From: Acidaminococcaceae bacterium
Lineage (GTDB): Bacteria; Bacillota; Negativicutes; Acidaminococcales; Acidaminococcaceae
Direction of reading: 5' to 3'
Length of the DNA: 47,477 nt
NCBI GenBank assembly: GCA_029004715.1
Contig: JAQVYX010000004.1
Span: 1-47,477 of the forward strand
Shown here: in pieces, positions 18,819 through 26,228 of the stretch
Position numbering within the stretch: position 1 is the first letter of the stretch
Layout of the letters: the number at the start of each line of letters is the position of its first letter
Position numbers and translations under genes: made by a program
Notes under the pieces: model-generated
What the model saw: only the letters and a program-made list of their open reading frames with translations
Database searches by the model: none
What the model was told of the DNA's origin: nothing

Positions 18819-19331
<513 letters not shown>

Positions 19332-21188
19332 TTATTTAGTAACATCGACATATTTAGTGCGAATAGCTAAGGGTACAAAAGCCTTGCCACCAGCCTCGTA
19401 AAACTTACTGAAAAATTCAATGTACTGCAACCTACTAGTATGTACGAAAGAACCCAACACATTAATTAAAATGTTGAAAATATGCCCACCCACAAGTACG
19501 AATACGGCAATTACAACACCGGCAGGTCCTGTTTCCCACAGCATTTTAGCAATGGTGTTAATTACCATGGCAATAACTCCTGTCGCTAAACCTAGAGCGA
19601 AAAGTCTGGAATAACTCAGAAGATCACTTACATAACCACTTATGTTATAAAGTGAAAGAAGTCCTCCGAAAAATTTTGCAATAACATTCTTTTTCTCGCG
19701 GCCACCCGTAAGCACAATAGTACCGGCACCGACAATAGCCATATCTCTACCAATTTCTCCCGGCAAGAGAGCCATTAAAAATAACCCTGCAAATAGAACT
19801 AACCAAGATACCTCATCAAAAATCGCGGCCCAAACCTGTCCACGCTTAACAAGCAAGTATATTTTCATGCACATACCTGTAACCAAATGCAAGGCTCCCA
19901 GACCAAAACACAATGCCAACATCTTTAAGGGCTCTTTCATAGGTACAAACAACAATGGTCTCCATTCTAGGCCAAACCATCCACCAAACAAAATTCCCCA
20001 CAAAACAGTAGAAACACCACCAAAAAGGATTACAGTAATTAGTTTTTCTGCAGAATCACGTGGTTTAAAGAGCTTAAGCACGGCATAAAGCAAAATAGTC
20101 AAAACAAGCCCATAGCCGGCATCTGAAAGCATCATACCAAAAAAAATGAAATGGAAAGGCGCCATCATGAAATCCGGATCCAAAGAACCTATTTTAGGTC
20201 GGGAATACAATTCTGTAACAAATTCATAGGGACGGGAAAATTTGCCGTTTTCCATTACCGAAGGTGGAATTTCTCCCTCTTCCGGCTCGACAAAATTTAA
20301 ATCATACGCAGAAGTTACCTCTGCAACGGCCTTGGTAACAACTTCAGTTTTATCCGCTCTTACCCAGCCTTGTACAAAAAATGTCTTCTGCGTTTCTACT
20401 CCACTTAAAGCCATGCGCTCTTGTTTAGCAACCAATTGGTCATAGTAAAGGTATAACTCTTCTTTTCTATGAGCTATTTTTTTTACTTCTTCTTCCAAAT
20501 TATCAGCTAATGATTCTTTCATTTTAGCCGCATCTGTTAAATCTGTTGCTATTTCTTTTGCTAATCCTACCCTTTTGGGAAAAACAACATCAGTAAAATC
20601 GTGGGCCTTAAGAAAATGTTTAACATCCGCACTAGCACTCTTATGGGCAAAGACAACAATTGCTCTGCCCTCCGGTACCTCTTCTAAAATAATTGCCTCT
20701 GCAGTCAACTCTTTGATTTCTTCTAGGAATTCATCTTTAGCCAATTCCGGCAAATAGCCGGCAAAATAGACCGTGGATGTAGTAGCAGCCAATTTTTCTA
20801 AAGGGATATCTAACCCCAACCAAGGCTTTAGTGCCCCTGCTTGGGCACGCATAGTTAAAGCTTCATTGCGTAAAGACCCTATTTTATCCTCCAATGTTGC
20901 TACTTGTTCTGCCAAATCCGCTGCTACAGGCGTATCTTGAAGAAATTTGTTATAAGCGACCGGCGTACGTGGTGTCAAAAAAGAACTTTTCCCTGCATGC
21001 ATCGTGATAAACTTAATTGCACCATTTGTTTTTTCTGCCTCATTGCCGACATTTTCTGCGCCTGGAAGTGCCGCTTCGTCTGCTGACGGTATTAACATTA
21101 CATTGCCATCTCGCTGTAAAGCCAAGAGAATCGAATCACGGTCTTCTTTAAGTGCATATAGTGTCGCTTTTTTCATTTGAACTAACAT
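19332..21188 (-). CDS. ntpI: V-type ATPase subunit I/a (membrane stator)
   Basis: This 618-residue subunit a/I has a cytoplasmic coiled-coil N-terminal half (about 1-320) and a C-terminal half with about seven or eight transmembrane helices. The segment LYNISGYVSDLLSYSRLFAL contains the conserved arginine that faces the ring ion site, and the Y(I/V)EFFSKFYEAGGK element near the C-terminus is typical. The frame opens with TTG at 21200, but the ATG at 21188, directly after the preceding stop codon, is the likely start. It couples ion passage to ring rotation. Confidence 0.95.
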   Translation of the reverse strand: MLVQMKKATLYALKEDRDSILLALQRDGNVMLIPSADEAALPGAENVGNEAEKTNGAIKFITMHAGKSSFLTPRTPVAYNKFLQDTPVAADLAEQVATLEDKIGSLRNEALTMRAQAGALKPWLGLDIPLEKLAATTSTVYFAGYLPELAKDEFLEEIKELTAEAIILEEVPEGRAIVVFAHKSASADVKHFLKAHDFTDVVFPKRVGLAKEIATDLTDAAKMKESLADNLEEEVKKIAHRKEELYLYYDQLVAKQERMALSGVETQKTFFVQGWVRADKTEVVTKAVAEVTSAYDLNFVEPEEGEIPPSVMENGKFSRPYEFVTELYSRPKIGSLDPDFMMAPFHFIFFGMMLSDAGYGLVLTILLYAVLKLFKPRDSAEKLITVILFGGVSTVLWGILFGGWFGLEWRPLLFVPMKEPLKMLALCFGLGALHLVTGMCMKIYLLVKRGQVWAAIFDEVSWLVLFAGLFLMALLPGEIGRDMAIVGAGTIVLTGGREKKNVIAKFFGGLLSLYNISGYVSDLLSYSRLFALGLATGVIAMVINTIAKMLWETGPAGVVIAVFVLVGGHIFNILINVLGSFVHTSRLQYIEFFSKFYEAGGKAFVPLAIRTKYVDVTK

Positions 21189-21189
21189 G

Positions 21190-21489
21190 CTAGACCACAA
21201 CCTTTTCTACTATGTATGCTACTGCAGCTGCCAACTTTTCTCTGGCAACCTGCGCTTGGGCACGATCAGAACGCGCTCTCTCATCTACTAAGGCTCTGGC
21301 CTTTATTTTAGACTGAGCTTCTGCTGCAGCTATCTTTTCTTTAGCTGCTTTACGTGCTGCAGTCAACATAGCCTCAGCTGTTTTTGCAGCCTCGTCCTCA
21401 GTTTCTCGCAACATGTTTCTCGCCGTCAAATTTGCCTCATGCTTAGATGTTGTCGCTGCTTCTTCTGCAGCTTTTATTTCTTCCAACAT
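21190..21489 (-). CDS. ntpF: V-type ATPase subunit H/G-like coiled coil (NtpF)
   Basis: This is a roughly 99-residue, almost wholly helical protein rich in Ala, Glu and Lys with no Pro or Gly breaks, as expected for the stator partner of subunit E. It is the first gene of the operon, as ntpF is in Enterococcus. The start is uncertain: ATG at 21489 (MLEEIKAAEE) or TTG at 21495, which is better spaced from AAAGGTGG; the upstream GTG codons overlap that ribosome-binding site and are unlikely. The stop lies one base before the subunit I ATG. Confidence 0.85.
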   Translation of the reverse strand: MLEEIKAAEEAATTSKHEANLTARNMLRETEDEAAKTAEAMLTAARKAAKEKIAAAEAQSKIKARALVDERARSDRAQAQVAREKLAAAVAYIVEKVVV

Positions 21490-21507
21490 AGACAATTTTC
21501 TCACCAC

Positions 21508-21743
21508 CTTTTATCTTCATACATAATTAACAAATATCATATAAGCGCACAAAATACCGTTTTCACGTCACAGTGAAACCGGTATTTCGATGTTAATATT
21601 TGTGAAATTCCTTCTCTTAAGGCATATACAATCATTTTAGCGTTCCTCTCATACTGTCCTTGACGTATTTACGGCAATTCCCGGTGAGACCGCCTAGAAT
21701 TTTTCTAGCTGCTCAATAAAATAACATATTACTAATTACACAA
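21508..21743 (-). promoter_or_regulatory. Structured leader of the V-ATPase operon (candidate cis-regulatory RNA)
   Basis: This stretch has no convincing large gene. Read on the minus strand it contains a CTAGAA/TTCTAG hairpin (21698-21711), a CGGT-CTC-ACCG hairpin, and near its end a 15-bp hairpin with one mismatch (21552-21566 with 21573-21587), followed by four T residues. A 32-codon ORF (21537-21635) behind GAGAGGA starts between them. The layout, structured element then weak terminator then operon, resembles an attenuated leader. No known riboswitch consensus was recognised by eye. Confidence 0.4.
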
Positions 21744-21775
21744 AAATCTGAAAACTCCTGCTTTTTTTCTGATTT
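21744..21775 (-). terminator. Probable murI terminator
   Basis: On the minus strand, AAATCAGAAAA pairs with TTTTCAGATTT with one central mismatch and is followed by T residues, just after the murI stop codon. It would separate murI from the V-ATPase transcript. Confidence 0.55.
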
Positions 21776-21776
21776 T

Positions 21777-22577
21777 TTATTTTAAGTTGATTAGCTCAAA
21801 GGTACACTTGATATGTGGAAGCATGTAATTTGCTAGCCGGCTTCCTCTTTCTAAGTCTGCGGTAAAACAAATTTTCGTCTTTCCTTCACCATTCTTCTTA
21901 ACCAAACTAGCTGTTTCTAAGATTTTAAGTGCATTTCTAGCCGTCTCTTCCGCCGGATCAATAACAACTACATCTTTACCCAAGGCATTTTCTATTTCGT
22001 TTTTTATAAAAGGATAATGTGTGCAAGATAAAATAAGCGTATCCACACCTTTAGTCTTCAATTTGTCTGTATATTCAATAACAGCCTCATTTAGCTCAGG
22101 TGAACCAAACTTTTCCCCCTCAATAAGGGGTACAAACTTGGGACAAGCTATGGGCAGAACTGATGCCTTGGCATCTATTGCTAAAACAGCCTTTTTATGA
22201 GCACCCGTTCCAATAGTAAACTCGGTAGCGAAAACCCCTATATTCTTCTTCTTACTGGCCGCTAAAACCAAACTAGCACCCTTGGACATTCCAACAAGAT
22301 GAAATTTGTGCTTTTTTTTCAATGTATCAACGCCCAACACCGTAAGAGTATTACAAGCAACAACAACCAATTTAACTCTTTGCTCATCAAAAAAACATAA
22401 CATCTGTTCCACAAAGGCACGCACTTCTTCTTCTTTTCTCGGTCCATAAGGAGTACGAGCTGTATCGCCCAAATAAATAAAATCCTCTGACGGCAACATT
22501 GTACGCAAACATTTCAAAACGCTTAGACCACCAACACCGGAATCTAAAACACCTATAGGCATATTCTCATTCAACAT
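21777..22577 (-). CDS. murI: Glutamate racemase
   Basis: This 266-residue cytoplasmic enzyme makes D-glutamate for peptidoglycan. The two catalytic cysteines are C75 (ACNTL) and C185 (SCTHYP); the substrate loop LDSGVGGLSV (11-20) and the segment LGDTARTPYG (36-45) are intact. The ATG at 22577 has only a weak upstream purine run, and a second ATG at 22562 (MPIGVLDS) is an alternative start. The gene lies upstream of, and on the same strand as, the V-ATPase operon but appears to have its own terminator. Confidence 0.96.
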   Translation of the reverse strand: MLNENMPIGVLDSGVGGLSVLKCLRTMLPSEDFIYLGDTARTPYGPRKEEEVRAFVEQMLCFFDEQRVKLVVVACNTLTVLGVDTLKKKHKFHLVGMSKGASLVLAASKKKNIGVFATEFTIGTGAHKKAVLAIDAKASVLPIACPKFVPLIEGEKFGSPELNEAVIEYTDKLKTKGVDTLILSCTHYPFIKNEIENALGKDVVVIDPAEETARNALKILETASLVKKNGEGKTKICFTADLERGSRLANYMLPHIKCTFELINLK

Positions 22578-23325: not shown

Positions 23326-23994
23326 TTATATATATTTAGACCATAAAGGATAAAGGCTAAGCAGCATAACAAGAAACAACACTAAATAATCAGCAAAACA
23401 TAATCTTTGTGGCGTCATGTTTTGGTAAGTATTAGCACCAAAACCCTTTAGTTCCATGGAAAGCGCTAAGGTGTCTGATTTTGCTACTGCTCTCATGACT
23501 AATGGCTTTACAACTGCCAAATAAGAATAGAAGCGTTTGAATACATTACCACGATTAGAATAACCACGACAAGACTGAGCATCTAAAGTTGTTGCACTAT
23601 CAGTTAGAAAATCCGGAACAAAACGCAAAGCAGTGGTCAACATAAAGGCATATTCACAGGGCAAATGAAATTTTTCAACTAAAGCCTGTGCAATATCTTG
23701 AATCTTTGTTGCTGCCAAAAGACATAAAAATGCAGTAGTCATAACAAACATACGCAAACCACCGGTTAATGATACACTTAAAGGAGAGCCAAATATAAGC
23801 TGCAGTAAAATCATCATTCCCGTAAATACTGTCAGTGCCCCAATAGCAGCCATAGTTAGGCGGTCATGTTTAATATATAGTAACAGCGCTAATTCTAAGA
23901 CTAAAATTATAGCTACTGCAGGTACCGGCAAAAGGAATACCCACGTAGTTACTGCTAAAACTGTTATTAACTGAGTAAAGGCAGTTATTTTCAT
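23326..23994 (-). CDS. ecfT: ECF transporter T component (EcfT/CbiQ family)
   Basis: This 222-residue membrane protein has about five hydrophobic helices, followed by the coupling region with the two short signature motifs that contact the ATPases (QSCRGYSNRG, about 153-162, and LSMELKGFG, about 186-194). EcfT joins the ATPase pair to the substrate-binding S component in energy-coupling-factor importers. It overlaps the upstream ATPase gene by 4 bp (ATGA). It is the last gene of an S-A'-A-T operon. Confidence 0.9.
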   Translation of the reverse strand: MKITAFTQLITVLAVTTWVFLLPVPAVAIILVLELALLLYIKHDRLTMAAIGALTVFTGMMILLQLIFGSPLSVSLTGGLRMFVMTTAFLCLLAATKIQDIAQALVEKFHLPCEYAFMLTTALRFVPDFLTDSATTLDAQSCRGYSNRGNVFKRFYSYLAVVKPLVMRAVAKSDTLALSMELKGFGANTYQNMTPQRLCFADYLVLFLVMLLSLYPLWSKYI

Positions 23995-24800
23995 CGTTCA
24001 CCACCTTCTTTAAGACACAATTTTTCGCAAAAATCTTCTACGGTAGGAGCAGAAATAATAAATGCCGCCGATAAGATAGCCATTATTGGTTGGGTTAAAC
24101 CCCATTCTTTAAGATCTCTGACCCCATTATAAAGGTCTTGCGTTGTCCCATCAAAAACCAAATTACCATCGTTTAAGACTATTGCTCTCTTAGCATACTG
24201 CCTAGCAATATTCATATCATGTGTAATAAGGATAATAGTAATTCTTTTCTCTTTGTTAAGTTTTTGCAAATAATCCATCATATTATCTTTTTCTTGTTCA
24301 TCTTGTCCATTAGTTATTTCATCCAAAATTAAGGTGCGTGGATTAAGTGCCAAGGCTGCGGCGACACCCAGCCTGCGTTTTTGTCCAAACGACAGTGTGC
24401 GCGGGTAAGCATCTGCCAAATTTTCTAACCCCATAGCCTGCAAAGCAGCTTGTACTTGCTCTTTAATAGCAGTTTCAGAAAGTTTTTTGCACCTAGGACC
24501 ATAAGCCACTTCAGCAAAAACTGTATCTTCCAAAATTTGCAAATCAGGGTTTTGAAAAACATAACCTACTTGATGGGCCAAATCTGCCGGCTCAAGCTTT
24601 TCAATATTATCTCCATCCACAAAGATATCTCCGCTGCGTGGGTGCACTAGTGCCATAAATAGACGACTTAAAGTGGTTTTACCACTACCATTGTGACCCA
24701 ACAAGGCCACGAATTCACCATCTTCTATTTTACATGTTATGTCGTTAATAACAGGTTCACCACGATGATAGGCGAAATTAACTGCTTTTGCTTCAATCAC
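23991..24800 (-). CDS. ecfA: ECF transporter ATPase A
   Basis: This 269-residue ABC ATPase has Walker A GHNGSGKTT (35-43), Q-loop VFQNPDLQI, signature LSFGQKRR and Walker B LILDE. The residues after Walker B read ITNGQD where most ECF ATPases have PTxGLD. The H-loop ITHD is present. The C-terminal extension (about 230-269) is typical of ECF ATPases and contacts EcfT. It overlaps both neighbours by 4 bp, indicating tight translational coupling. Confidence 0.92.
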   Translation of the reverse strand: MIEAKAVNFAYHRGEPVINDITCKIEDGEFVALLGHNGSGKTTLSRLFMALVHPRSGDIFVDGDNIEKLEPADLAHQVGYVFQNPDLQILEDTVFAEVAYGPRCKKLSETAIKEQVQAALQAMGLENLADAYPRTLSFGQKRRLGVAAALALNPRTLILDEITNGQDEQEKDNMMDYLQKLNKEKRITIILITHDMNIARQYAKRAIVLNDGNLVFDGTTQDLYNGVRDLKEWGLTQPIMAILSAAFIISAPTVEDFCEKLCLKEGGER

Positions 24801-25660
24801 CCTAGAGCACCTCCCACAAATTTTTCCTTTAATTCTTCAAGTGCCTCTGCTTCCTTACGCCACGCTCTCAAAGATATACCAAAACGTTGTTCTAAATTAA
24901 GTTTTACTTGCCATAACTCTGGCAGGTTACGCCTAAGTTCAGGTATTGCATAGGTCATTGCTGCTGCTTCTTCAAAAAATCCTTGCGCCGCTACGCGGCC
25001 TTTATTCATGACAATCATATCTGTAACATAGGGCAGCAAAAAGTTGATATTATGTTCTACAACTACCACTGTCATATTGTACTCTTTATAAATTTTGTAC
25101 AACAATTTATAAAGTGCGTTAGCACCATCTGGATCCATGGCTGAAACCGGTTCATCCAAAACCAATACCTCTGGATGCACCGCTAATACAGACGCTAAAA
25201 GCAAACGCTGCCTTTGTCCGCCTGACAATTCATCTAATTGATAATTCTCACGTCCTGGCAAGCCAACGTCCATCAAAACTTGCTTTGTCCGCGCTTCTAC
25301 TTCCTCAGCGGCAAACCCATGATTAAGTAAGCTAAACGCTATTTCTTCCCCCGCCGTAAGAGAAACCAACTGGCTTTCGTAATCGTCCAGCATAAGTCCT
25401 ATACGCATAGCTAAATCGGATACACGCTTGCCTTTTGTCGTTACCCCCAACACTTCAACATCGCCGGCATAACGTCCTCCATAATAATACGGAATTATAC
25501 CAGCCATAGCTTTGCACAAAGTTGTTTTTCCCGCTCCGCTAGGTCCGGAAATGATAGTAAAAGAACCTTTGCGAACATCTAAGTTAATATTATGTAAAAT
25601 TATGTCGCTGTTAATATACCCATAATGAAAATTCGTAAACTTAATCGCTGTTTCATTCAT
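24797..25660 (-). CDS. ecfA2: ECF transporter ATPase A'
   Basis: This 287-residue ABC ATPase has Walker A GPSGAGKTT, signature LSGGQRQRL, Walker B VLVLDEP and VVEHN as H-loop. An upstream in-frame ATG at 25705 exists, but the ATG at 25660 follows GGAGG at the right distance and starts at the conserved domain (MNETAIKFTNF), so the shorter form is preferred. It overlaps the S-component gene by 8 bp. It pairs with the next gene as a heterodimeric motor. Confidence 0.9.
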   Translation of the reverse strand: MNETAIKFTNFHYGYINSDIILHNINLDVRKGSFTIISGPSGAGKTTLCKAMAGIIPYYYGGRYAGDVEVLGVTTKGKRVSDLAMRIGLMLDDYESQLVSLTAGEEIAFSLLNHGFAAEEVEARTKQVLMDVGLPGRENYQLDELSGGQRQRLLLASVLAVHPEVLVLDEPVSAMDPDGANALYKLLYKIYKEYNMTVVVVEHNINFLLPYVTDMIVMNKGRVAAQGFFEEAAAMTYAIPELRRNLPELWQVKLNLEQRFGISLRAWRKEAEALEELKEKFVGGALG

Positions 25661-26228
25661 GTCTTTTGCCCTCCTGCATAAAAAACAATTTTTGCACCGG
25701 AGCAAAAAGTGCCTGTGTAATTACACCATTTAACCCCCCTACAACCATAACTACAGGAAGCATAGCATTAGTCCATACATTTAAAGGTAAATTTAAAATT
25801 ATTTTTAGAATAAAAGTAAAAACTCCGCCACTAACAACAGTAGCAAAAAAACCGGTAATAAAAGGCCGAAACCTAAAATCGCGCAATCCCATATAAAACA
25901 TAGCCTTAACTAAAATTGCAGCAGTCAAAGCACCACAAATTTCACTAGCCACATTCCCCAATGGAAACGCTGATTTTGACGACGGAACTATGGTCAATCC
26001 TGCTATAAACCCAATCCCCAAAGCACGTGAAAGACTGGGATTGGTCAGGCCGATTGTAATAGAATACATAGCAATAGTCCAATTAGGTGTTACTCCTCCA
26101 ATATTGGGACTAATGGTATGCAAAATAACGCCAATAGCCAGCAACAATGCCGTTACTGCCACCCAGCGGTGGCTATCTTTAGCTGCCGGTAGCTCTATAA
26201 ATTCAGGTTGTTCATTATCCATATCCAT
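25653..26228 (-). CDS. ECF transporter S (substrate-binding) component, possibly tryptophan type
   Basis: This 191-residue membrane protein has about six helices and an N-terminal polar stretch. The pattern ALLLAIGVILHTISPNIGG, then PNWTIAMY, and the later AFPLGNVASEICGAL resemble the TrpP tryptophan-transporter group of S components. I see no biotin, thiamine or folate S-component signature. The specificity is an inference from pattern memory and is weak; no tryptophan gene or T-box lies nearby. It is the first gene of the operon, behind a good promoter. Confidence 0.7.
   Translation of the reverse strand: MDMDNEQPEFIELPAAKDSHRWVAVTALLLAIGVILHTISPNIGGVTPNWTIAMYSITIGLTNPSLSRALGIGFIAGLTIVPSSKSAFPLGNVASEICGALTAAILVKAMFYMGLRDFRFRPFITGFFATVVSGGVFTFILKIILNLPLNVWTNAMLPVVMVVGGLNGVITQALFAPVQKLFFMQEGKRHE

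Follow-up and report, generated by a model that had tools for sequence, protein, structure and literature searches.

On the minus strand of the window (the whole stretch of 47,477 nucleotides that was analysed, from a 2.0 Mb genome whose nearest named relatives are Acidaminococcaceae), a leader lies between murI and a V-ATPase operon. Of the recognised genes upstream of the leader, the glutamate racemase gene murI (21777..22577; PF01177) lies closest to it; farther upstream, at 23326-26228, the window holds genes resembling those of an ECF-type transporter (EcfT, two ATPases and a membrane component, named by eye from the translations). The first gene of the operon (21190..21495) is without a Pfam match and encodes a putative small stalk subunit, ntpF/H-like. 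Its start is likely TTG at 21495 rather than GTG at 21507, judging from the ribosome-binding site AAAGGTGGTGA (21501..21511, minus strand) and from relatives, in which GGTGGT is found 3' of the hairpin described below (8/8 clusters of hairpin leaders). The operon continues on the same strand with ntpI, encoding subunit I (19332..21200; PF01496), and ntpK, encoding the Na+-type rotor subunit (18819..19295; PF00137). Subunit K can be aligned with the structure of the sodium ATPase K ring (2bl2; 137 bits), with matches at LPGTQG, QGK and MVET, so that the assignment of this V-ATPase to the Na+ type, proposed in an earlier note on this DNA, is sound. These three motifs contain the Na+ ligands, and 2bl2 is the protein of E. 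hirae.

Near the end of the leader lies an inverted repeat with arms of 15 nt (21552-21566 and 21573-21587; 93% complementary, 6 nt apart). On the minus strand, this repeat (21552..21587) gives the terminator-like hairpin UACCGGUUUCAC-loop-GUGAAAACGGUA, in which a G x A mismatch interrupts the stem. The 45-nt minus-strand stretch around it folds at -19 kcal/mol, compared to a shuffle mean of -8.42 (z = -4.77, 0/200 shuffles as good), so that the 15-bp stem of the earlier note is a real repeat. The TTTT that had been placed after this stem is present at 21551-21554, but the 15-nt arm already includes three of these four T, and the run is 3' of the stem only if the stem is taken as 12 bp. The U-rich tail of the hairpin reads UUUUGUG (21548..21554). 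The 279-nt leader as a whole folds at -58.2 vs. -51.91 for shuffles (z = -1.48, 18/200 as good), which leaves the several hairpins that had been read in it without support as a significant property.

Between the window and a sister species of the same genus (G001), the stem arms are identical at 30/30 positions and the loop at 2/6. The 5' block of the leader (21633..21711, minus strand), which is recognised within the genus only, is 77.6% identical in DNA between the two genomes, vs. 74.4% for murI and 72.4% for the first ntp gene; between these two members its conservation is close to that of coding DNA, and it could be a genus-specific structured element.

Conservation and rarity of the hairpin

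We identified the hairpin at one place each in 11 genomes from 7 genera of Acidaminococcaceae. Standard pairs occupy 95.8% of the pair cells across the 11 members, compared to 32.5-48.5% in slid controls, and RNAalifold recovers the same stem. The covariation score was 0.286 vs. 0.201 in shuffled alignments (0/500 reach it) and at most 0.149 in slid ones, as calculated from 11 partly related rows, in one of which (G017) MAFFT misplaced a gap, lowering the pair counts. Given that further pair types were no more numerous than in shuffles (276/500 reach the observed number), this covariation is only moderate. Alignment of related genomes, which the earlier note had put forward as a check, yields a conserved hairpin with changes on both sides in 4/11 pairs, that is, moderate covariation across genera of the kind that characterises conserved structured RNA. 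Within the conserved stem sequence, which includes CCGGUUUCAC, positions C8, C9, G10, G11, T13, T14 and C15 of the 5' arm are invariant in the 11 members.

Folding energies of the hairpin range from -14.7 to -26.5 kcal/mol in 10/11 members (G007, a near copy of G020, was omitted here and from the terminator-criterion counts given below), and 5-8 T occur among the 9 bases 3' of the stem in 11/11 members. The feature of intrinsic terminators and attenuators, a stable 5' leader hairpin with a U-rich tract behind it, is thus present; the U-tract is weak in part of the members, for example UUUUGUG in G000 and UUCUGUUUG in G022.

A covariance model gave 39.3-53.5 bits at the 11 hairpins and at most 34.4 bits elsewhere in 380 genomes of the class. 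Because the model was built from the same 11 sequences, with 16 first-look candidates scored per genome, this search supports the single copy and the rarity of the hairpin and is evidence of uniqueness only, not an independent discovery. The matches at 34.4 bits or less were taken for ordinary terminators, given that many match on both strands; at seven loci with such matches, of which two (G005 and G343) were read, tblastn found none with murI, ntp or mrpE. A relaxed pattern applied to the 380 genomes matched five of the eleven members and seven other genomes, which, without regard to their context, were taken for chance matches. Patterns and model find the hairpin at one place per genome, and a common genomic repeat was therefore rejected.

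Two Na+ exporters behind one leader

The hairpin is found ahead of ntp genes in four genomes (G000, G001, G009 and G014) and ahead of mrpE, of the Mrp antiporter, in seven (G003, G007, G010, G017, G020, G022 and G033). At all 11 loci, the closest upstream match is to MurI and lies on the strand of the hairpin; the MurI proteins of hairpin loci outside the genus are 52-65% identical to that of the window. The distance from the end of murI to the hairpin is roughly 160-320 nt in ten loci and about 600 nt in G009, where the gap contains no ORF longer than 51 aa. Directly after murI in G014 and G009, and before the promoter motif, reading by eye shows another terminator-like hairpin that has its own T-run, indicating that the leader hairpin is not the terminator of murI itself. 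The element is real, conserved and attenuator-like, with an exchangeable Na+-export cargo.

Of the 49 ntp and mrp loci, 47 were included in the counts of the hairpin and of neighbouring genes. Among these 47, 36 lack the hairpin, and MurI lies upstream of 31, including 20 of the 36 hairpin-less loci (the flanks being short). At one locus, L040 (G011), the ntp operon begins about 30-40 nt after murI, which leaves no room for this leader, and the two are probably co-transcribed. Among 59 genomes of the family, 27 contain V-ATPase subunit I and 21 contain MrpE, and none contains both, several of these genomes being incomplete; if the two were independent, the chance of no overlap would be 2.5 × 10−8, a value that ignores kinship and incomplete genomes. 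In a tree of MurI with 30 rows (30 of the 31 loci with murI, L069 being omitted), hairpin-bearing loci are spread over several lineages, and weak support (84/85) places G003, an mrp case, together with the four ntp cases. This tree fits an old element that would have survived one or more changes of cargo and been lost repeatedly; gain of the hairpin by transfer is also possible.

Promoter motif and the attenuator reading

Upstream of the hairpin, a putative sigma-H-type promoter, AGGA-N17-TAAT, can be read on the minus strand, with a -35-like element at 21756..21759 and a -10-like element at 21735..21738. The published SigH motif of the Negativicutes (Sporomusa) consists of AGGA and GAAT with 17-18 nt in between (PMC12456013). 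The motif described here shares the AGGA, the spacing and a -10 of the NAAT type, and differs in that the -10 is TAAT, one base off the published GAAT, both in the window and in 7/11 hairpin leaders; the start site is a predicted one. The genome of the window encodes SigH (TIGR02859, 356 bits vs. a cut-off of 294.8). A sigma-H-like motif (AGGA, 17-18 nt, NAA) upstream of the hairpin was found in 11/11 leaders by reading and in 8/11 by a strict scan, which missed G014 and G022, the motifs of which end in GTCTAAA. Motifs of the AGGA-N17-TAAT type occurred at 0.4% per region in mononucleotide shuffles, the motif having been set after the leaders had been read. Only two sites in the genome match a tighter pattern (GCAGGA, 14-15 nt, GTCNAAT), neither of them the window promoter, so that the promoter is called sigma-H-like on the basis of its form and of the relatives. 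The sigma-H-like -35 overlaps an inverted repeat after murI in the window (21742-21777) and, as seen by eye, in L009 (G003) and L045 (G018), as if the promoter and the murI terminator were interleaved.

Three members of genus g17 that are without the hairpin (G071, G072 and G027) carry this promoter motif only 51-52 nt upstream of the start codon, in a scan in which start codons were not located for 11/35 hairpin-less loci. This distance suggests that the stretch holding the hairpin is a dispensable leader and that, elsewhere, the hairpin is inside the transcript. The tail of the hairpin lies 45-85 nt upstream of the start codon across members, and a hairpin with a U-rich tail at this distance, downstream of a promoter motif, has the layout of an attenuator. 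We consider it moderately probable that a sigma-H-type promoter located after murI drives transcription of the V-ATPase operon, with this region as the 5' untranslated leader, and that the intrinsic-terminator-like hairpin near its end acts as a transcription attenuator, at which part of the polymerases would stop while the remainder would read into the Na+ export operon. The hairpin would have been inherited with the murI locus and would have stayed there while the exporter alternated between the Na+ V-ATPase and the Mrp Na+/H+ antiporter. The hairpin is probably a real control point, and the conservation of its stem sequence makes recognition by a specific factor plausible.

Since relatives carry this hairpin ahead of another type of Na+ exporter, a tie between attenuation and Na+ export is a fair hypothesis. 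The more far-reaching proposal is that a single inherited element in the RNA responds to a signal linked to Na+ (Na+, pH or membrane energy), directly or via an RNA-binding factor that recognises the conserved stem, and was retained as the control of Na+ export while an unrelated pump took the place of the one it controlled; this is tentative, and we regard it as unlikely. Some lineages have Na+ transport genes under RNA control. That the conserved attenuator-like hairpin keeps its locus whichever of the two unrelated Na+ exporters follows it ties the element to a physiological job rather than to a gene, and makes it a small RNA amenable to testing.

Genome scans have yielded numerous attenuators that work by premature termination, some of them ahead of non-homologous genes (PMC2965389). 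The leader resembles these conserved 5' terminators, for many of which no sensor has been characterised, but differs from them in that a single inherited leader has, at the same locus, either of two unrelated Na+ exporters as its cargo. The main text of PMC2965389 contains 0 occurrences of sodium, antiporter, V-type and ATP synthase. A literature search of titles and the starts of abstracts, with most subscription papers outside its scope, found no paper describing the leader. Judged by the literature found, the leader is thus a new member of a kind, the attenuator, that is already known.

Alternative readings and the search for a sensor

One alternative is a constitutive terminator that ends a short RNA or stray upstream transcription, with the operon promoter located downstream of the hairpin. 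The position of the hairpin between two genes would agree with this, as would the fact that no regulatory partner was found, whereas no sigma-70-like promoter turned up on the minus strand in a consensus scan of 21300-22000, and the sigma-H-like motif lies upstream of the hairpin in all leaders as read. By inference, the retention of CCGG..UUC across 7 genera is also unexpected for a stem without a further role, and we consider a constitutive terminator unlikely. The hairpin could, instead of terminating transcription, act post-transcriptionally, as the binding site of an RNA-binding protein or as an mRNA-stabilising hairpin. This would account for the conserved sequence of the 5' arm, including a G whose partner position holds A, G, C or no base, and for the weak tails in part of the members, but not for the hairpins of G020 and G033, which resemble ordinary terminators with long U-tracts; we take such a role to be improbable.

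In enterococci and clostridia, V-type ATPase genes are among those linked to Na+ riboswitches, and the riboswitch that was tested works by means of an intrinsic terminator (PMC9337991), so that the analogy with Na+ riboswitches drawn in the earlier note is apt. A new riboswitch responding to Na+ or another ion, with the hairpin as its expression platform, would explain why two unrelated Na+ exporters share the hairpin and why the 5' block in genus g1 is about as conserved as coding DNA. The Na+-I riboswitch (DUF1646 motif, RF03071 'Sodium') likewise precedes Na+-related operons, including those of V-type ATPases. In contrast to that class, the leader has no match to the model, which found nothing in the window genome at E ≤ 1 (with stricter search filters) and exceeded the gathering score of 40.5 bits in 0/59 family genomes, and no shared aptamer-like sequence was found. 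A cmscan of the window at gathering score returned a single tRNA and no hit in the leader, and only irrelevant sub-threshold names were obtained in 21300-21900 at E ≤ 10 and in nine loci of relatives at E ≤ 5 or E ≤ 1; the Rfam search that had been suggested as a check thus gave no relevant match, in agreement with the failure to match a known class by eye. Between promoter and hairpin, the 5' parts of the leaders, compared with one sequence for each of 8 clusters, share no words across genera beyond chance (words of 6 nt matched exactly, or of 7-9 nt with one mismatch), and the leaders vary in length from 170 to 295 nt. No antiterminator was found by a simple duplex folding test, in which the best upstream pairing was no better than in shuffles in 11/11 leaders (lowest fraction 0.185). 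A riboswitch is therefore a doubtful explanation, and a genus-specific aptamer is possible. What stands of the ion-controlled attenuation originally envisaged is the covarying terminator-like hairpin in the leader of a Na+-type V-ATPase operon, not the ion-responsive aptamer; ion sensing by the leader is possible but unsupported.

Leader-peptide attenuation, in which a translated upstream ORF would control the hairpin, is very improbable. An ORF of 32 codons is present in the window as first described (21537..21635, minus strand), but its Shine-Dalgarno sequence, GAGG, is modest rather than good. ORFs with a Shine-Dalgarno sequence reach the hairpin in 9/11 leaders, compared to 6.83 expected from shuffles, and frame and peptide vary even within the genus: the body of the ORF is 57.8% identical to G001, with gaps and in another frame, and is the least conserved stretch after the loop. 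The frequency of such ORFs is not clearly above chance, so that a conserved translated leader ORF was rejected and the ORF was judged incidental; conservation is that of the hairpin and not that of a coding ORF alone. A palindromic DNA operator for a dimeric repressor, which the near-perfect dyad with conserved half-sites might suggest, is hardly credible, given that the half-sites are 6 nt apart in the window vs. 11 nt in genus g10, where the extra bases extend the stem, and that G-U pairs occur.

By a terminator criterion of our own, written after the leaders had been read, 20 terminator-like hairpins were found in 24 leaders vs. 2.6 expected, ten of the 24 leaders having been chosen for having the hairpin. 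Among the hairpin-less leaders tested (14 of 36, those with a placeable sigma-H-like motif), 7/14 contain another terminator-like hairpin vs. 0.94 expected, of a shorter type that starts 12-20 nt into the leader. As terminator-like hairpins are over-represented also in leaders without the conserved one, attenuation ahead of Na+ exporters may be a habit of the family. The leaders with this second, promoter-proximal type of hairpin are L096, L098, L105 (g16), L097, L106, L037 (g13) and L045 (g18).
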